From a virus: a stretch of DNA of 21,394 nt. The number at the start of each line of letters is the position of its first letter. The first letter of the stretch is position 1. The translations under genes were made by a program, and so were the position numbers. The notes below the pieces were generated by a model, which was not told where the DNA came from, did no database searches, and saw only the letters and a list, made by a program, of their open reading frames with translations. Positions 5,720 to 18,459 of the stretch are shown piece after piece. The DNA lies in IMG/VR virus record IMGVR_UViG_3300013094_000329, positions 1 through 21,394 of that record, one strand, 5' to 3'.

Positions 5720-6517
5720 TTAAATAATTTTATAGTTGCCTTGCAACGGTTTATCTATCATGCCACCCTTTTTATTTTGTACTACCGTATCCATGGGTGA
5801 TGCTTGTGCGAGTTGAATATCTGATTCTGGTTCTAATTCTGGACTTACTTGTGATATTGATTTTACTTGTGGCGCTGGTTTTGCTGACGGCACATATCCT
5901 AGTTTATCTTGAATAAATTGTTTAAGTTCTTGATTTTTTGGATGATCTACTACATCCAATGCTTTATTAACTCTTTGGTTATAGTTCCTTGCTGCTTCCC
6001 CTTTACCATTCCAAACTTCAAAAACAGGTTTATTTAAACGAGCCGCAACTTGATGTTTATCTAAAATTGCCGCAGGAAAACCCGCTGCATATGGATCAAA
6101 TCCTTGTTTGACCAACGCTTTATAAACATTCACTGCGTGTTTATTATTTTCATCAAAGTCATTAAAACCAAAATTAGAACGACCTTCTTCTAATGCCATA
6201 GCTGTTAGCTTATTAGGATGCATCATAGGTACACCGAATTGTTTATTAGCTACTTTATAGGCATCTAGTAGTTTACCCATTGTTTCTTTGTCATATCCCG
6301 TATCTAACGTCTCTACACCGTCTTTTGTTTTACGCGATACACGCCGTGCCGGTATGTAATTGTCTTTAGTTATTTCTTTGGTATCAGGTAAATAGTATTC
6401 GGGAGATTTAAGGTTCAACCCTTTTTTAGCTGCGTATTTATAAGACGCTGCATGTAATTCAGGCGCAGTTCCAGGTGGGTAATATCCGCCATGGATTGAG
6501 TACACTCTTTCATCCAT
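5720..6517 (-). CDS. Protein with possible lysozyme-like domain, between terminase and portal
   Basis: A 265-residue protein, mostly hydrophilic, without signal peptide. The central part (about 95-185) has features seen in lysozyme-like muramidases and transglycosylases: a Glu-Glu pair in TAMALEEGRSNFGF (residues 105-118) and, near residue 168, VWNGKGEAARNYNQRV, similar to the NG/YxxxV end of such folds. This is a tentative reading. The C-terminus ends with a GGMIDKPLQGNYKII segment; from memory, similar Gly-Gly-Met...Lys-Pro-Leu tails occur on other phage virion proteins. The large terminase stop overlaps the AAGGA binding site here, so the genes are coupled. It could be a cell-wall enzyme carried in the virion or a structural protein with an inactive fold. 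Confidence 0.7.
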   Translation of the reverse strand: MDERVYSIHGGYYPPGTAPELHAASYKYAAKKGLNLKSPEYYLPDTKEITKDNYIPARRVSRKTKDGVETLDTGYDKETMGKLLDAYKVANKQFGVPMMHPNKLTAMALEEGRSNFGFNDFDENNKHAVNVYKALVKQGFDPYAAGFPAAILDKHQVAARLNKPVFEVWNGKGEAARNYNQRVNKALDVVDHPKNQELKQFIQDKLGYVPSAKPAPQVKSISQVSPELEPESDIQLAQASPMDTVVQNKKGGMIDKPLQGNYKII

Positions 6518-6525
6518 ATCATTCC

Positions 6526-8046
6526 TTAATAGTATGCGGGCCTCTTGCGATATTGACGCAAAAAGGTATCGTCCGGTTCATCGTTGGGTAGGCGAAGGAA
6601 TCCCCCTTGCCTAAATCTGAGGAGCGCGAGTGTTGTAGAGTCCACCAAGTCGTCGTTTGCCCCGCTTGGGAAGTCGTTACATTCTTCAATTACTTCTTTT
6701 GCCCATCTGCGGTCTGGTGCCCACACTATGCCTGAAGCAAATAAATCTGATACTGCATTAACTCGTGCAATTTTATCCTGTCCTTTACCTGGAGTAAACT
6801 CCCCTACCGGGACGCCCATCCGTCTAAATTCTTGATACAAAGCCGACCCGTTTGATTTCTTCTCAACCATAAACGCATCAGGTTGCCACTCTTTATATTC
6901 TTCTAGTACCAGCTTTTTAAGTTCTGGATACTCCATACGTTTCTTTATCGCATTGAGCAGTATGATTGCGAAGTTATTTGTCTCTTCGTTATAAAACACG
7001 CCCCAAGTTGTGAGTGCGTTAAAGTCTGCTCTGTTATTTGTTTCTTGCGCCGCATCAAGAGACATGATGGTAAATTCACACATTGGCGGATGGTCTTTAT
7101 CCCATATCTTCCACCATTCTCTTTTTATAAGTGCGCCCTCTTCACTCACAGGATTTTGCATGTACTGCGCATTCCAGTAGCGAATATCTAATGCAGCTTT
7201 CTTCGCATACAACTCTTCTACGGGCCAAAACTCAGGCCACAATGCTTGACCATCTTCTTTGATTGCAGGGAACTCAACTACTTCCCACTTATCAACTTGA
7301 TCATCTTTATCCATTTGACTAACGATCTGTCCAGTTAAATCTAACTTAGACCACCGAGTCATCACGACCACAATAGCACCTCCAGGCATAAGACGCTGCA
7401 AAGGGCCAGACTGAAACCACTCCCAAGCAGGAAGAAATACTTCAGGTTTCCCAGTCTTGGCTTCTTGCTCCGAATGTGGGTCATCAATAATAAAAAGGTC
7501 TGCGCCTCGACCAGCCAAAGCACCGCCAACACCGATAGCAAAGTATTCACCATTGAAGTTTGTCCCCCATCGTGACGCCGATTTACTATCAGCTTGTAAT
7601 TCTATTTGCGGAAAAATATCCTTATATGAATCTGAACCCACAAGATTACGCACTCGACGACCAAAGTTGACTGCCAGATCAGCAGTGTGCGACGCCATAA
7701 TAACCTTCTTTTGCGGGTACTTACCGAGGAACCATGCGGGTGCAAGATAGGAAATGAGCTCAGACTTACCGTGTCTTGGCGCAATATTAACGATAACACG
7801 CTTGCTCTTTCCTGCTGCGATATCTTCAAATATCTGAGCGAGTTTAAGATGGTGTGGGCCAACTTTGTAGCCAGGATATACATGCTTAACAAAATCCAGA
7901 AAAGAGTCCTTTCCAACAGATTGAGTAATTTGTATTTGATATTGGCGTAGTAACTCAAGAGTCTTCCTTTTTTGTTTATCAGGCATCGTCGGCAATGCCT
8001 GACGAATTTTGAATAGTTGCTCCGGAGTTATATTAATTGCCGTCAT
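6526..8046 (-). CDS. Terminase large subunit
   Basis: A 506-residue DNA packaging motor, the usual size. The N-terminal ATPase domain shows an early HHLKL segment (65-69), the Walker A motif IAPRHGKSEL (88-97), a Walker B LFIIDDPHSE (184-193) and the VVVMTRWSKLD coupling region (226-236). The C-terminal RNase H-like nuclease domain shows the expected acidic residues: MSLDAAQE (Asp331), DAFMVEKKSNG (Glu395) and GANDDLVDSTTLAL (Asp466 and Asp469 region). It cuts concatemers and pumps DNA through the portal encoded downstream. Its start lies inside the end of the preceding gene (14-base overlap), a common arrangement for small and large terminase genes. All key motifs look intact. Confidence 0.95.
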   Translation of the reverse strand: MTAINITPEQLFKIRQALPTMPDKQKRKTLELLRQYQIQITQSVGKDSFLDFVKHVYPGYKVGPHHLKLAQIFEDIAAGKSKRVIVNIAPRHGKSELISYLAPAWFLGKYPQKKVIMASHTADLAVNFGRRVRNLVGSDSYKDIFPQIELQADSKSASRWGTNFNGEYFAIGVGGALAGRGADLFIIDDPHSEQEAKTGKPEVFLPAWEWFQSGPLQRLMPGGAIVVVMTRWSKLDLTGQIVSQMDKDDQVDKWEVVEFPAIKEDGQALWPEFWPVEELYAKKAALDIRYWNAQYMQNPVSEEGALIKREWWKIWDKDHPPMCEFTIMSLDAAQETNNRADFNALTTWGVFYNEETNNFAIILLNAIKKRMEYPELKKLVLEEYKEWQPDAFMVEKKSNGSALYQEFRRMGVPVGEFTPGKGQDKIARVNAVSDLFASGIVWAPDRRWAKEVIEECNDFPSGANDDLVDSTTLALLRFRQGGFLRLPNDEPDDTFLRQYRKRPAYY

Positions 8047-10689: not shown

Positions 10690-10728
10690 TTATATGTCAA
10701 GTTATGTTATACTTATACCTGAGTCGCA
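10690..10728 (+). promoter_or_regulatory. Promoter repeat copy 1 (extended -10), upstream of the 84-aa gene operon
   Basis: A 39-base segment that matches 12304-12342 at 37 positions. It begins TTATATGTCAAGTTATG and contains TGTTATACT (10705-10713), an extended -10 box, then ends with AGTCGCA. No good -35 lies upstream (CGAGTT). Initiation would be near 10720. The palindrome at 10758 starts exactly 50 bases after TATACT. Confidence 0.65.
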
Positions 10729-12259: not shown

Positions 12260-12303
12260 ATAACTGGCATCTTTCGCATAAAAAAGTTGTGTAAATGCTT
12301 GTG

Positions 12304-12342
12304 TTATATGTCAAGTTATGTTATACTTATAACTCAGTCGCA
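12304..12342 (+). promoter_or_regulatory. Promoter repeat copy 2 (extended -10), upstream of the MoxR/VWA cassette
   Basis: Identical to 10690-10717 over 28 bases, then CT-N-AGTCGCA. TATACT lies at 12322-12327 preceded by TG one base earlier (extended -10). A weak -35, TTGTGT, is 17 bases upstream. Initiation would be near 12334. The palindrome at 12372 starts exactly 50 bases after TATACT, the same distance as in copy 1. Confidence 0.65.
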
Positions 12343-12371
12343 GAATGTTTTCAGTTAGTTGTTAGTTATCG

Positions 12372-12389
12372 TTCCACGTTAACGTGGAA
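12372..12389 (+). repeat. 18-base palindrome, copy 4
   Basis: TTCCACGTTAACGTGGAA, a perfect palindrome over all 18 bases. It ends 24 bases before the ATG at 12414, in the predicted leader. Confidence 0.88.
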
Positions 12390-12413
12390 TTCTTTTAAAT
12401 CAAAGGAGATAGT

Positions 12414-13328
12414 ATGTTAGAGAAACCAAGTCATCTTATATCGTTAGCATCTAGCGGGTTCTTAGTGTCACTCGATGTCAACGTGTGGTCAGCAACCAAG
12501 CAAGACCGAGGCATCAGCAATGAGGTTACTACGGCAAAGCATGCAGATAAAAATGCCGGCAAGTACGTTAAGAATCTACTAGCAGATCACCCAAGGCACA
12601 AAGCGATTGTGAATTATCGTCAGACGATTTACAACTGGCTGAAACGTAGGACTTATCGGTGGAACAATGCACAGGACTACTTGCCGTCAATTGATATGCC
12701 CAAGTTCAAACAAGAGTACAACGAGCATGAGACCGAGTTCTTCAGACTACGTGACGAGTTCATCATCCACTATGATTCTATTGTCTCAGACATGGCGTTC
12801 AAGCAAGGCGATATGTTCAACCGAGATGACTATCCCAGTAAAGACGATCTCACGCATAGGTTCAACGTTGAATTGTTCGTCGCAGATGTGCCGATGAATG
12901 ATTTCAGATGCGCCATAGCAAATGACATCGCTGATGAGTTGTTCAACACATACAGTAAGCAGACTGAGAAAATCATTTCTACCATTATGACTGAGCAACA
13001 AAGTCGGTTCGTGGAGGTCATGAAGTCAATCAGTCATTGTTGCGGTGTCGATGAAATCGGTGTCGATGACAACACAGGTGAGACCAAGACAAAGCGTAGG
13101 AAGATATACGACACAACAATTATCAAAGCCAAGGAGATGTGCGAGACGTTCAAAGACTTCAATCTTAGTGGCAGTAAGGAACTAGAAGATGCAAGGGCAT
13201 CGCTAGAGAAAGCATTGGATGGTGTAGACGCTGAGACTATTCGTGAGTCAGATGCGGTGCGTCATGCAGTAAAGGAGGATGTCGATGGCATCCTGAGTAA
13301 ATTCAGTTCGTTCAGTATGTTTCAGTAA
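12414..13328 (+). CDS. MoxR/VWA-cassette partner protein (304 aa), possibly DUF3150-like
   Basis: A 304-residue mostly helical protein just before the AAA+ ATPase gene. It opens with LISLASSGFLVSLDVNVWSA, then a TKQDRGISNEVT loop, then long charged helices (HKAIVNYRQTIYNWLKRRTY; ETEFFRLRDEFIIHY), an HCCGVD pair near residue 204, and Glu/Lys-rich helices at the C-terminus. No enzyme motif is seen. The SLDVNVWSATKQD opening and its place next to a MoxR-type ATPase recall DUF3150 proteins; this is from memory and weak. It is the first gene after the promoter at 12304 and has AAAGGAG before the ATG. A substrate adaptor or target of the ATPase is possible. Confidence 0.78.
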   Translation: MLEKPSHLISLASSGFLVSLDVNVWSATKQDRGISNEVTTAKHADKNAGKYVKNLLADHPRHKAIVNYRQTIYNWLKRRTYRWNNAQDYLPSIDMPKFKQEYNEHETEFFRLRDEFIIHYDSIVSDMAFKQGDMFNRDDYPSKDDLTHRFNVELFVADVPMNDFRCAIANDIADELFNTYSKQTEKIISTIMTEQQSRFVEVMKSISHCCGVDEIGVDDNTGETKTKRRKIYDTTIIKAKEMCETFKDFNLSGSKELEDARASLEKALDGVDAETIRESDAVRHAVKEDVDGILSKFSSFSMFQ

Positions 13329-13354
13329 TTATTAGTTTAACAAAGGAAAAAATC

Positions 13355-14470
13355 ATGTCTAAAGAAAAACTCAACTTTATCAACACAGTATCTATCAACG
13401 AACTCAGAACTATGATTCCACTCATAGGTGGAGAGATAACTCCGATCATCCAGTCCGAACCTGGTTGCGGTAAGACTTCTCTGTTATCTATGATAGCAAC
13501 AGACAATGGTGACAAGTGGCGCAAGGTCGGTGACTACTTCGAGTCAGACAAGTACGACTACATCTATGTCGATTGCCCCGTCAAAGATATGTCAGAGATA
13601 GGTATGACAATTCCTAACCACACATCGAAATCCCTTGAATATTATGTGTCAGATTTATTCAAGCTAGACAACGGCAAACCTAAAGTTATCTTACTCGATG
13701 AGTTCATGAAGTCTCCCAAGCTATTGCAAGTCATCTTCACTAGGCTGATGCTTGAGAGATGCGTAGGTGACGTTCCACTAACACGTGGGTCAATAGTTTT
13801 CGGTACAAGTAACAATGCGTCCGATGGTGTTGGTGACAATATGTTAGCCCATGCGGGGAATCGTGTATGTATCGTGCGTATGGCGAAGTCAACACCTGAT
13901 GAGTGGTTGCAATGGGCGACAGAGAACAACATATCTCGTGTCATTCGTGCGTTCGTGTCTATGTTCCCTCGTGTATTGGCATCTTATACGACAGGAGATC
14001 AAGCGGACAATCCCTACATCTTCAAGCCAAGCATGACAACACTATCGTTTTGCTCTCCTCGTTCATTGGCAAAGTGCGATGTGATCGTGAAGAACAGAGA
14101 CAGGTTGGGTGACAACGCAACAATGGTTGCACTAGCGGGTACGATCGGTGCATCAGCGGCTGGTGACATGAGTGCGTTCTTAAAACTTGAGAAGTCTCTC
14201 GTTGACTTCAAAGACATTATCAAATCTCCAAAGACTGTGGCATTGCCTAATGATATCTCTGCTCAACTTATGATCATGTTCCAAGCGGTCGATAGCATCG
14301 AGGCACAAGATCAACTAACAAACTTCATGGAGTTCGTAGAGCGCATTGAATCAAGCGAGGTACAAGCGGTGTTCTTTACGATGATGATGCGTACTGCCAA
14401 GACGATCAGACTTGCAAGGAACAATCAGAAGATAGCGATGTGGGCGAAAGACAACCACGAGTTGTTTTAA
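13355..14470 (+). CDS. MoxR-like AAA+ ATPase
   Basis: A 371-residue AAA+ protein. Walker A is SEPGCGKTSLL (34-44), Walker B is VILLDEFMKSP (111-121), sensor 1 lies in IVFGTSNNAS (147-156), and an Arg-containing motif HAGNRVCIVRM (167-177) matches the place of the MoxR arginine finger. The C-terminal 190 residues form the helical lid and an extra helical part. MoxR ATPases work with VWA-domain partners to remodel proteins or insert metal ions. The VWA/metallopeptidase gene is two genes downstream, with only a small membrane-protein gene between. AAAGGAAAAAATC precedes the ATG. Motifs look intact, so an active ATPase is likely; the substrate is not known. Confidence 0.9.
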   Translation: MSKEKLNFINTVSINELRTMIPLIGGEITPIIQSEPGCGKTSLLSMIATDNGDKWRKVGDYFESDKYDYIYVDCPVKDMSEIGMTIPNHTSKSLEYYVSDLFKLDNGKPKVILLDEFMKSPKLLQVIFTRLMLERCVGDVPLTRGSIVFGTSNNASDGVGDNMLAHAGNRVCIVRMAKSTPDEWLQWATENNISRVIRAFVSMFPRVLASYTTGDQADNPYIFKPSMTTLSFCSPRSLAKCDVIVKNRDRLGDNATMVALAGTIGASAAGDMSAFLKLEKSLVDFKDIIKSPKTVALPNDISAQLMIMFQAVDSIEAQDQLTNFMEFVERIESSEVQAVFFTMMMRTAKTIRLARNNQKIAMWAKDNHELF

Positions 14471-14494
14471 TTAATATTTCACTAGGAGATGGAA

Positions 14495-14680
14495 ATGGAA
14501 TTAACAAGTGCTGATTGTTTTCTACTAGGGTGGGCGTTCATGGCGACCATACTATATGTGAAGACTAGGGAAGAATTAAAGTTCTTTAAGTACAGAATGG
14601 GCAATACCTTGCAAGGTATTGCAAAGGGTAAGTTAAAAGTAATTGATCATGGTGATCATTGCGAAATCGAGGAGATTTAA
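14495..14680 (+). CDS. Small single-span membrane protein between ATPase and VWA genes (61 aa)
   Basis: I choose the ATG at 14495 because AGGAG (14484-14488) is six bases upstream; the ATG at 14489 directly abuts that site. The protein has one hydrophobic segment, CFLLGWAFMATILYV (about residues 8-22), then a basic region (KTREELKFFKYRMG) and an acidic end. This suits one membrane span with the C-terminus in the cytoplasm by the positive-inside rule. It lies between the MoxR ATPase and the VWA gene, which starts right after its stop. It could anchor the complex at the membrane or be a small lysis-type protein; gene position favours the former. Confidence 0.65.
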   Translation: MELTSADCFLLGWAFMATILYVKTREELKFFKYRMGNTLQGIAKGKLKVIDHGDHCEIEEI

Positions 14681-14681
14681 T

Positions 14682-15998
14682 ATGCAAGGCAAACAAGAAA
14701 CAAGACTAAAGAGAGCGCACATTGCGCTAATGAAACATCCAGCGACGGCACTTTACTCAGGTGTAATGCTGATGGGTAAGAGCGAGGTCATTGATGGTGA
14801 GGGTACGGCATACACCGATGGTGTCAACAAGCGTTACTATCGCAAGTTCCTTGAGGAGCATATCAAGGATGAATCTTCTTTGCGAGGCTTAGTACTTCAT
14901 GAGAATCTTCATGTCGCACTAAAGCAGATTCCACGTGGGCGTGACATGATAAATGACAACCGCAAACTGGCTAACATTGCGATGGACTTTGTGGTCAACG
15001 ATATCATTGTCAATGCGAAAGGTACAGTATCGGGCGGGACTGAGCCGATAGTTTCTTTACCGACAGAGGGTGCGGTGTATGACCCGATGTTCCACAATTG
15101 GTCAATGCGTGAGGTATACAACTATCTCAAGCCACTCGTAGGTAAAGCACCTCCTCCGTCACAAGGTAGCAAGGGCGATGAGCAAGGCGATGGTGATGGT
15201 GGGCAAGGTAATGGTTCACCCCAAGGTGGAACACAAGATAGTGATGAGGGTTGGGAGAACACAATCACAATCAACGGCAAGACCTATGATCTTTCTGACT
15301 CAGATGAACATGATACATCGGGCATGGAGGGTCTCGATCATGAGCAACTGAAAGAACTTAATGACAAGATAGATAGTGCTCTACGTGAGGGTGGAATGTT
15401 AGCGGGTCGCATGGGTGGCAAGATGCCAAGAGCAATCACAGATATGTTAGCACCCAAGGTTGACTGGCGACATGAGTTGCGTGAGTTTGTATCCTCATCA
15501 ACCAAGGGTAACGACGAGTTCACATGGCGCAAGATGAACAAGCGACATATGGTCAATGACATCTATCTACCAAGCGTGGAGAATGAATCAATCGGTGAGG
15601 TGGTTGTTGCTATCGACACATCGGGTTCAATTGGTGAGAAAGAATTGAATGAGTTCGCTAGTGAACTGGCATCAATTTGCGAATTGGTCGAACCTAGCAT
15701 GGTGCGTATCATTTGGTGGGACTACGATGTTCATGGTGAACAAGTCTTTACTGACAACTATGCCAACATCGGTGCAATGCTTAAACCATTGGGCGGTGGT
15801 GGTACACGCGTGACGAGCGTTAACGATTACATCAATGAGAAGAAGATTACCGCAGACTGTGTGCTGATCTTTACCGATGGATACCTTGAGAGCGACATCA
15901 CATGGACTATCAGTTCACCGACATTGTGGTTCATCACACAAGCGAAAAACTTCGTCGCACCTAATGGTGGAAAGGTAGTTGAGGTGAACGATGAGTAA
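14682..15998 (+). CDS. HExxH metallopeptidase with C-terminal VWA domain
   Basis: A 438-residue protein (start at 14682, after GAGGAGATTTAAT; a longer frame from 14643 lacks a binding site). The N-terminal half has RGLVLHENLHVALKQ (residues 68-82) with HENLH, an HExxH zinc motif. Residues 156-190 are a Gly/Gln/Asp linker. The C-terminal domain has VVVAIDTSGSIGEKE with the metal site residues Asp312, Ser314 and Ser316, plus GGGTRV (Thr375) and LIFTDGY (Asp399), completing a VWA MIDAS. This joint metallopeptidase-VWA layout resembles DUF2201-type proteins linked to MoxR ATPases. It probably pairs with the ATPase encoded two genes upstream. Whether the peptidase is active is not shown. Confidence 0.88.
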   Translation: MQGKQETRLKRAHIALMKHPATALYSGVMLMGKSEVIDGEGTAYTDGVNKRYYRKFLEEHIKDESSLRGLVLHENLHVALKQIPRGRDMINDNRKLANIAMDFVVNDIIVNAKGTVSGGTEPIVSLPTEGAVYDPMFHNWSMREVYNYLKPLVGKAPPPSQGSKGDEQGDGDGGQGNGSPQGGTQDSDEGWENTITINGKTYDLSDSDEHDTSGMEGLDHEQLKELNDKIDSALREGGMLAGRMGGKMPRAITDMLAPKVDWRHELREFVSSSTKGNDEFTWRKMNKRHMVNDIYLPSVENESIGEVVVAIDTSGSIGEKELNEFASELASICELVEPSMVRIIWWDYDVHGEQVFTDNYANIGAMLKPLGGGGTRVTSVNDYINEKKITADCVLIFTDGYLESDITWTISSPTLWFITQAKNFVAPNGGKVVEVNDE

Positions 15999-16287
15999 AC
16001 CAAACTTAAGAAACTCATTAGAACTTAGAGTGTGGATGCAAGAAAGTTCGGCACGAGTGGCAATAGCATCAAGCGTAGGAGGTGACCCCGATATGGCAAC
16101 TGCAAGATTCGCAGATCAGTTAGTCGATGAGCTATTAGAACTCTATAAGTCAAATCCTGACATGGCTTATGGCTATGCTCTAAGTGAGGCTGAACTGAGT
16201 CAAGATGAGTTCCAACGACAGATGTGGTTATCGGTGTGTAAAGTATTGGATGACAGACTAGGACTTAAAAAAGGAGATGAGCAATGA
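15991..16287 (+). CDS. Helical protein of unknown function (98 aa)
   Basis: A 98-residue acidic helical protein. Its start overlaps the VWA gene stop by eight bases (ATGAGTAA) and its own stop overlaps the next start (ATGA). Segments include LRNSLELRVWMQESSARVAI, MATARFADQLVDELLELY and a DEFQRQMWLSVCKVLDDRL helix. No motif is recognised. The tight overlap suggests production together with the VWA protein, and perhaps function with it. Confidence 0.72.
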   Translation: MSKPNLRNSLELRVWMQESSARVAIASSVGGDPDMATARFADQLVDELLELYKSNPDMAYGYALSEAELSQDEFQRQMWLSVCKVLDDRLGLKKGDEQ

Positions 16288-17327
16288 TGTACGGATTTAA
16301 CTATGAGCGACTGACCAAAGTCACAGAGCAACAAAAGCCCTATCGTGGTTCGGATAATCGTTTCCCGATGGAGCACAGATCACGCAATGAGAAATACTTT
16401 TTTGTTGAGGAGGAGAATGGCGAGAAAGTATACGATATCGTGTATGGCTCAAATTGGAGACAAGAAACTATCGACAAAGAAACTTATGATTCACTCTATG
16501 CAATCAAACCTAGTGGAGTATGGGCATATGAAGAATATGATCATGTCAATCATAAAAGCACAGGCAATTTCAGTTACTACAAGGTAATTCGTAATCCAAA
16601 CTTCATGGCGAGAGTACGTTCAGATAACACAGTTGAGTTTACCAAGGATGAGTATCATCAAGGAGAGCGCAACTTCTTATCACAAAACACAAGCGGTGGG
16701 TTCATTAACGATTCACGTAGAGGTGGACTGATATATAAACACTACGGATACAGGGACAAACGAAACACACTACTAATGCACGCAATTCATAAGGGTATGC
16801 GTATCGCTTGTGATAGTGACATGGCGGTCGTGCCTTATGAGGTAGAGTTGAAGAAGGTAGATCGTAGACTAGCCAAAGAAACTCTTAAACCATACGAGGA
16901 TTTCTTTAAGGTAAGCGAGGTCATGTGCAAGGCGATGCCGTATGAACAACTCAAGGACTTAGCAATAGAGGTATGCAAAGAGCGAATCCCAAGTAAAGTA
17001 CTTACTCATATTAATAGTCAAGAACTTTTACATGAGGCAAGGTTATGCACACAAAGCGCACCACTTGATGCGTTAGTACTCTATGCGTTGGCATACGATG
17101 TGAATCGGTTTGCATGGTCATTCAGATGGGGTAGAACAATTTCCGATGACAATGGTGAGAGAAGTCATCAACTGTATATAGCGACCAAGCGTAGGATACT
17201 GAAAGATTTATATACCACACATAAGGAAATATTTAAACCATACCGAGTGCAAGGCGGTGTGTATTTTCCAGCGAGTGAGTGGGGCACAGAAGTGATAGTA
17301 AATGGTAAAGTAATTCAACAACTTTAA
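16284..17327 (+). CDS. Protein of unknown function (347 aa)
   Basis: A 347-residue basic, Tyr-rich protein. The N-terminal half has many aromatic residues (MMYGFNYERLTK, RNEKYFFVEEENGEKVYDIV, SGVWAYEEYDHVNH), and the C-terminal half is helical (KVSEVMCKAMPYEQLKDLAI; DALVLYALAYDVNRFAWSF). No Walker, zinc or membrane motif is seen. AAGGAGATGAGC precedes the start; the second ATG at 16287 is an equal candidate. It belongs to the operon after the VWA gene. I do not recognise a family. Confidence 0.78.
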   Translation: MMYGFNYERLTKVTEQQKPYRGSDNRFPMEHRSRNEKYFFVEEENGEKVYDIVYGSNWRQETIDKETYDSLYAIKPSGVWAYEEYDHVNHKSTGNFSYYKVIRNPNFMARVRSDNTVEFTKDEYHQGERNFLSQNTSGGFINDSRRGGLIYKHYGYRDKRNTLLMHAIHKGMRIACDSDMAVVPYEVELKKVDRRLAKETLKPYEDFFKVSEVMCKAMPYEQLKDLAIEVCKERIPSKVLTHINSQELLHEARLCTQSAPLDALVLYALAYDVNRFAWSFRWGRTISDDNGERSHQLYIATKRRILKDLYTTHKEIFKPYRVQGGVYFPASEWGTEVIVNGKVIQQL

Positions 17328-17348: not shown

Positions 17349-17510
17349 ATGGAAGGAAATGAACTAAGACTATTCTTAGCGTTGCTGAATTTAATGCAAC
17401 AAATAGAAGAAGATATGCCAAGAGAGTATATGACTAAGCACTTAAAAACTGCGATAGAAGATGCGTGTGAATTACTAAATGAAACAAGCCAAGGAGAAAA
17501 CGATGAGTAA
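17349..17510 (+). CDS. Small helical protein of unknown function (53 aa)
   Basis: A 53-residue protein of two helices: ELRLFLALLNLMQQIEEDMP and REYMTKHLKTAIEDACELLN, then an acidic tail. AAGGA lies nine bases before the ATG. The stop TAA overlaps the next gene start (ATGAGTAA, eight bases), the same overlap signature used elsewhere in this operon, which argues that it is real despite its length. No function can be read. Confidence 0.65.
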   Translation: MEGNELRLFLALLNLMQQIEEDMPREYMTKHLKTAIEDACELLNETSQGENDE

Positions 17511-18459
17511 ATATATTCTTACATCAGTAGCGGGAGATTCTGTACAAGACATGGACAAAGTTCTCAAGGAGAATATTTGCTTTCCACTTGTGCGTGAACT
17601 TGAATTTAAGTATGGCTTAAAAGTTTATAAGATATCGGGTGAGGTGAAAAACGTAATAACTCCACACTTTTATATGTGTTATTCCAATGGTTTACCATGC
17701 GGTGCGGTGTTTGCTAAGGCTCAGAAAGAATGGGACGCACACAAAGGTACTCACGTTGAGCATTGGGAGTACAACTTCAAGACACCATACTACAAGAAGG
17801 CAAGAGGCTCATCCGATAGTGATAGAGAAACTATATCGAGTAAGAAAATCTCTACTCTAATGGGCACAATACAGAGACAGAAAGTTATCAAGCCGTTGGA
17901 TGAGATTATCAATAAAGAATACAAATCAGAAATGCTAGAGTGTTTGGGAACGATGAAAGATTCTTTCGGTAAAGATCATAAATATGCACCTGTAGATGCG
18001 GATACTATTCATGCGTTGGTGGCTTATGCACTAGGTGAAAATCCTAATAGTTATGGGCTATCAATAAACACATCTGTATGTAAAGATTTGCTTGACAAAT
18101 TCAATAAGTGTGATAGCATCAGAGCCAAGAAATTAAAAGAGACAGAGAGATTTTTCAGTAATCCATTCTATGCAATCGGTGTTGATAAGAGTAAGCATAT
18201 CATCATCGGCAAGTTAAAAATAGTAGAAAACAAAATGCAAGTAGTAGAAGATTTCAGTCGAGTGTTATCGTTAGATCATAAGGAAGATTTAACTGCAATT
18301 CTTACTATGATGAGAGTTGCGAATGAGAACATGGGCGAACTCATATTAAATTGTTTTCCTAACAATACTAAGTATGATGCTAACCTTGATGTAATTTATA
18401 AGAGTGTATGGTATCGTAATGAGACAGACTTTCATTGGACTCTTATCCCATGTCAATAA
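17503..18459 (+). CDS. Protein of unknown function (318 aa)
   Basis: I start at 17503 (MSKYILTSVAG), where AAGGAG lies eight bases upstream and the start overlaps the previous stop; an in-frame start at 17479 would lengthen it by eight residues. The protein is 318 residues, Lys-rich, with HFYMCYSNGLPCGAVFAKAQ near residue 55, a basic loop KKARGSSDSDRE, and a region ADTIHALVAYALGENPNSYG near residue 170. The C-terminus has ILTMMRVANENMGELI and WHWTLIP-like ending FHWTLIPCQ. No known motif is seen. Confidence 0.75.
   Translation: MSKYILTSVAGDSVQDMDKVLKENICFPLVRELEFKYGLKVYKISGEVKNVITPHFYMCYSNGLPCGAVFAKAQKEWDAHKGTHVEHWEYNFKTPYYKKARGSSDSDRETISSKKISTLMGTIQRQKVIKPLDEIINKEYKSEMLECLGTMKDSFGKDHKYAPVDADTIHALVAYALGENPNSYGLSINTSVCKDLLDKFNKCDSIRAKKLKETERFFSNPFYAIGVDKSKHIIIGKLKIVENKMQVVEDFSRVLSLDHKEDLTAILTMMRVANENMGELILNCFPNNTKYDANLDVIYKSVWYRNETDFHWTLIPCQ

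Follow-up and report, generated by a model that had tools for sequence, protein, structure and literature searches.

A phage gene cassette linking a MoxR-like ATPase to a predicted metallopeptidase-VWA protein and a constant third partner

The cassette and its catalytic motifs

The stretch of DNA analyzed here, a viral record of 21,394 nucleotides (IMG/VR record IMGVR_UViG_3300013094_000329; hereafter the window), carries four genes in a row on the plus strand at positions 12414–15998. An earlier note, made from the letters alone, had described this arrangement, and all four open reading frames (ORFs) are present. Gene A (12414..13328) encodes a 304-aa protein that profile similarity, fold similarity and linkage mark as a divergent DUF3150-like protein and constant third partner. 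Gene B (13355..14470) encodes a 371-aa MoxR-like AAA+ ATPase, as judged by family match and motifs. Gene C (14489..14680) encodes a membrane protein of 63 aa, which has one span and a conserved tail (..GK.KV.D.GD..EI..I), and gene D (14682..15998) encodes a 438-aa DUF2201 protein with an N-terminal HExxH metallopeptidase domain and a C-terminal VWA domain containing a metal-ion-dependent adhesion site (MIDAS). No viral contig of the window's lineage showed A, B or D separated from the other two.

We observed this linkage however the contigs had been collected. In viral contigs found through A alone, B followed in 71 out of 71 cases with room for it and D in 61 out of 61. Contigs found through the terminase alone contained A in all 22 cases with at least 6.5 kb of room and the full A-B-D trio in all 15 with at least 8 kb. 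Among divergent relatives, the median identities of A, B and D were 68%, 73% and 64%, respectively, and those of flanking genes were 32–53%. A, B and D are core, slow-evolving genes rather than patchy accessory ones. The note's idea of a MoxR/VWA pair sharing an operon with a third partner was borne out, as the genes are conserved together. The test that it had set, whether the neighbors stay together, gave a divided answer: A, B and D are always linked, and the C family is missing from 24 out of 77 B-D junctions.

The motifs that the note had read in B and D are intact. B contains Walker A (SEPGCGKTS), Walker B (VILLDEF), sensor-1 (TSNN), Arg-finger (NR) and sensor-2 (SPRSL) motifs and matched phrog_1297, labeled "ATPase" (E 9e-51); its Pfam matches were weak and below the curated cut-off. 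D combines HENLH with a complete MIDAS (DTSGS, GGGGT and FTDG) and matched PF13203 (DUF2201_N, "putative metallopeptidase"; E 1.7e-23, 84.1 bits against a cut-off of 23.2) and PF09967 (DUF2201, "VWA-like"; E 6.5e-17, 62.2 bits against a cut-off of 26.4). With full ATPase motifs and a VWA gene adjacent, B and D make up a MoxR-like AAA+/VWA pair. The B motifs, the HExxH of D with a following Asp and Asn, and the MIDAS were retained in a comparison of 28 diverse systems from phages and plasmids. One relative, L023, carries a natural peptidase-site variant of D (6041-7345) in which HExxH lacks its first His (LENLH) and the MIDAS is intact. The Pfam scan detected no effector domain fused to D.

We placed the start of D at the ATG at 14682, giving 438 aa, because this codon follows a GAGGAG box and most relatives align from residue 14–17. 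A listed TTG start at 14643 was rejected: it overlaps C and is unsupported by the alignments of relatives. D belongs to phrog_1314, which is labeled "HNH endonuclease"; that label is wrong for D. The same wrong name also stands in the RefSeq records of N4 (gp25), LIT1, RaK2 and phage G.

Gene A and the membrane slot between B and D

Window A by itself gave no significant match in family scans, including Pfam, PHROG, NCBIfam and PADLOC. However, PF11348 (DUF3150) was matched weakly by 5 out of 21 A relatives (best E 3.6e-4), the top match in a fold search against viral proteins was a DUF3150 protein (E 3.6e-13), and a profile of A relatives (A1) matched the A protein of Pag-Yong1 (1.8e-17), which is identical to a Synechococcus phage MinM2 protein annotated as DUF3150. 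On these grounds A is a divergent DUF3150-like protein. Because the curated PF11348 cut-off was not reached (locus score 10.2 bits against 24.9), we do not claim formal membership of the family. A fold search of the Protein Data Bank (PDB) with A returned no match at E<=0.001, and comparing the sequences of A, B and D with PDB entries gave nothing meaningful. Two candidates for a hidden A homologue were rejected, LIT1 gp31, which is itself an AAA protein, and phage G gp569, which was dismissed by search; no match was found in IncC plasmid peH4H, a candidate source of DUF3150.

Proteins of the C family are 63–68 aa long, with one membrane span and a conserved tail, and have a ratio of non-synonymous to synonymous substitution rates (dN/dS) of ~0.1–0.25, pointing to purifying selection. 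The family was seen solely between B and D and was present in every locus of the lineage with a B-D gap of at least 198 bp. By these patterns of conservation, C is a real gene, in agreement with the note's one-span membrane protein. In one relative (L010:1870-2388), a 172-aa ORF that by eye resembles an HNH homing endonuclease lies between B and C.

We counted 77 distinct B-D junctions, related contigs being included and exact duplicates removed. One-span membrane ORFs, predicted from ORFs and hydropathy with a threshold that misses four weak C proteins, occupied 65 of them (C family, 53; other short sequences, 12). Thus half of the 24 junctions without the C family (12) hold an unrelated one-span peptide. 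Where the gap was 90–189 bp, 12 out of 14 junctions held a strongly hydrophobic ORF of 28–42 aa, against 0.2 expected in shuffles, and these ORFs are several unrelated sequences; none of the ten junctions with gaps below 90 bp had a one-span ORF. Control slots in the same genomes contained one-span ORFs in 0/55 (D-F), 2/29 (F-G), 2/14 (H-I) and 11/53 (I-K) cases. This enrichment, together with the C family, upholds the membrane link drawn by the note. What stands out most in our analysis is that unrelated, predicted one-span peptides recur in this one slot.

Genome setting and relatives beyond the lineage

Among 50,697 cultured-phage records, the peptidase-VWA protein was present in 679 and the ATPase in 402; many of the 679 carry the "HNH endonuclease" misnomer. 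B and D occur together in N4, LIT1, EcP1, RaK2, phage G and pSYSA. No homologue of A turned up when LIT1, EcP1, phage G and pSYSA were searched, so the three-gene form is one sub-type of a broader pair. N4 gp24/gp25 and their homologues in Schitoviridae resemble the window pair in belonging to the phrog_1297 and phrog_1314 types and in their catalytic motifs, but differ in that no A was detected in LIT1 or EcP1, the B-D slots checked had no one-span ORF and D is ~25–27% identical.

A-B-D homologues also occur on conjugative and other plasmids. On plasmids of Cupriavidus, Burkholderia and Rhodovastum, full-length A homologues are flanked by the ATPase and VWA genes; in Simplicispira the ATPase gene is a few kilobases from an A homologue. 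The modules of Burkholderiales and Rhodovastum plasmids and of one cultured cyanophage genome (MinM2/Pag-Yong1) comprise the same three families, but their order is B-A-D rather than the A-B-(C)-D of the window lineage, their A is just 22–26% identical to the phage A query, and the annotated ORFs in the Pag-Yong1 slots include no one-span membrane ORF. The B tree did not reject a common origin of all A-bearing systems (p 0.32), and the D tree, in which branches are long, rejected it weakly (p 0.023).

A MoxR ATPase beside a protein with an N-terminal metallopeptidase and a C-terminal vWA domain was described in group 2.2 jumbo phages, where a role in virion assembly was proposed; the parts of that report available to us mention no DUF3150 partner or membrane peptide (PMC7824862). 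In NorQ/NorD, the VWA partner docks by its VWA domain, with a finger reaching into the MoxR hexamer, and its linker is twisted by ATP hydrolysis (PMC13036017). RavA and ViaA bind lipids and act at the inner membrane (PMC9489729). Both systems resemble the window pair in its presumed mode of working, an ATPase ring with a VWA partner; B and D matched no RavA/ViaA-type family in the Pfam and NCBIfam scans. The VWA partners of RavA-ViaA and NorQ-NorD are not known to be DUF2201 metallopeptidases, and neither system is known to have a DUF3150 partner. The B and D pair was thus already known. In the literature searched, the constant third partner, the occurrence on plasmids and the membrane slot were all undescribed.

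A sigma70-like promoter (TTGTGT-17-TATACT) can be read in the sequence at 12299..12327 (+). An exact 22-mer, GTCAAGTTATGTTATACTTATA, stands at 12310-12331 and again at 10696-10717 (0 repeats expected by chance within the window), and promoter-like sites precede A in 56 out of 75 relatives, against 113 out of 6963 background tiles. Conservation supports a promoter element of the cassette's own, so the single promoter that the note had assigned to these genes holds in this respect; a strict consensus scan did not list the site upstream of A. In 34 out of 75 relatives, the -35 element upstream of A is covered by a dyad (CTTGAC-N6-GTCAAG), in operator-like placement. The leader contains a hairpin, TTCCACGTTAACGTGGAA (12371..12390, +), followed by a T-rich tract, attenuator- or terminator-like, which recurs in many relatives; in others, this stretch falls in a small one-span ORF (..YLAIHVVVDF..).

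Structural genes occupy the minus strand in the left part of the window, including terminase (phrog_38, E 1.9e-99) and portal (phrog_1216). The structural arm of these phages encodes very large proteins of 2352 and 988 aa. The plus-strand arm on the right extends further in a near-identical 66.7-kb contig (G001), where it continues with a family-A DNA polymerase, a PD-(D/E)XK exonuclease, an SNF2-type helicase and a DUF927/primase-helicase-like protein. The cassette shares its arm with DNA polymerase, exonuclease and helicase genes and lies opposite the structural genes.

Downstream, gene E (15991..16287, +; 98 aa) overlaps the end of D and is confined to close relatives. Gene F (16284..17327, +; 347 aa) is conserved, faster-evolving and without a family, and gene G (17479-18459) encodes 326 aa. 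F and G accompany the cassette in most relatives, match no Pfam or PHROG family, and have about half the identity to window proteins that A, B and D have. We treat E and F as neighbors and do not count them among the parts of the machine proposed below. The second gene after D in Pag-Yong1 (L131:5454-6494) carries the annotation anti-CRISPR AcrVA2, and a PDB sequence search with it gave no match; kinship of F to this "AcrVA2" was rejected by comparison.

A DNA-level search of the window against cultured phages found no match. The lineage consists of uncultured aquatic phages, with cultured viral relatives limited to Pag-Yong1, MinM2 and Pra-JY27, and the closest terminase relatives include phages of Pelagibacter, of cyanobacteria and one from a gammaproteobacterium. 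One A-B-D phage contig (L039, CAIPLJ010000099.1) sits inside an actinobacterial metagenome-assembled genome (MAG), through misbinning or as a clue to the host; a DUF3150 search of 296 genomes of that MAG's phylum gave zero matches, and its control was equally silent. Three cyanophage records (OQ594354, OL906435 and PP438419), each of 65,014 bp, share an identical A protein and are assigned to three different hosts.

Proposed mechanism and alternatives

We tentatively propose, at somewhat less than an even chance, that A, B and D form an ATP-driven, probably proteolytic, protein-remodeling machine of three subunits that serves the early programme of the phage and is tied to the membrane in the window lineage. 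By analogy with NorQ/NorD and RavA/ViaA, we infer that B would form a ring and drive D by hydrolyzing ATP, and D would dock onto this ring via its VWA/MIDAS domain. The zincin-like N-terminal domain of D may then cut, or at least hold, the remodeled target, and A may belong to the complex as a structural, scaffold or adaptor subunit. The tether to the inner membrane would be C or, in its place between B and D, an unrelated one-span peptide. The target of the machine, in the early or replication programme, might be a membrane-associated protein or a protein of the host. A wider idea, which we regard as doubtful, is that the MoxR, DUF3150-like and metallopeptidase-VWA proteins are the three subunits of an AAA+ metalloprotease that forms a class of its own, common to phages and conjugative plasmids, and that the lineage repeatedly installed unrelated one-span membrane peptides in the B-D slot so that the machine would dock on the membrane while the genome is being established.

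Several results weigh against the proposed membrane-tied machine. Peptidase activity of DUF2201 proteins is read from motifs, and a relative with LENLH exists. AlphaFold2 models were moderate for both A (predicted local distance difference test [pLDDT] 78, predicted template modeling score [pTM] 0.50) and D (pLDDT 68, pTM 0.49); a PDB fold search with the D model returned VWA domains only (Z ~13), the peptidase half being barely covered by the search. The plasmid and N4-like versions lack a membrane peptide, and tethering therefore lies outside the core mechanism. One-span ORFs are absent from 12 out of 77 B-D junctions.

The cassette might instead serve virion assembly as a chaperone that also processes proteins by proteolysis, the role proposed for the pair of group 2.2 jumbo phages (PMC7824862). 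The protein architecture, as far as we saw that report, is the same, roseophage RPP1 encodes virion proteins near its N4 gp24/25 homologues, and the 2352- and 988-aa proteins of the structural arm might need help. However, the cassette lies in the replication arm, and N4 gp24 and gp25 are middle genes. Plasmids carry the A-B-D set without virions, a setting in which assembly cannot be its task, so assembly is unlikely as the sole role; we consider this explanation unlikely overall. We give a smaller chance, and call it improbable, to a remodeler of replication or DNA-handling complexes (a phage or plasmid replisome, or transfer machinery) that acts without the membrane. The pair adjoins helicase and DNA polymerase genes in N4-like phages and shares the replication arm in the window lineage, and the plasmid modules adjoin type IV secretion system (T4SS) genes in Burkholderia and lie near partition genes in Rhodovastum, but such a role leaves the membrane-ORF enrichment of the B-D slot unexplained.

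A machine for anti-defense or host takeover, one that would unfold or cleave a defense protein of the host, was raised as a role in the earlier note in general terms. It would suit an early-type operon and a module common to phages and conjugative plasmids, which alike reach the cell as foreign DNA. Yet the module occurs in every relative with enough sequence and evolves slowly, unlike patchy, fast-changing counter-defense genes. PADLOC returned no match, and F, downstream of the cassette, does not resemble AcrVA2; this role now appears decidedly improbable. The note's suggested kinship with ternary conflict systems did not survive, as we also found no VMAP or iSTAND component. Finally, viral AAA/VWA pairs have been called cobST and argued to raise cobalamin in archaeal tailed viruses (PMC8651126). 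MoxR/VWA pairs do insert metals, and the cassette could accordingly supply CobS/CobT-like chelatase subunits that borrow host CobN. We consider this very improbable, since neither B nor D matched a CobS/CobT Pfam model at E<=1, B falls in phrog_1297 rather than phrog_249 ("porphyrin biosynthesis"), and the HExxH domain and constant DUF3150-like partner do not fit the scheme.

The literature searched showed no role for the peptidase-VWA protein or the ATPase in any phage, and a full-text search for DUF3150 returned nothing; the linkage described here gives DUF3150 a context, of which that literature reports none. Taken together, the constant third subunit, the virion-free plasmid version and the recurrent membrane-peptide slot narrow the possible roles of the cassette and make the question of its role testable with small gene sets.

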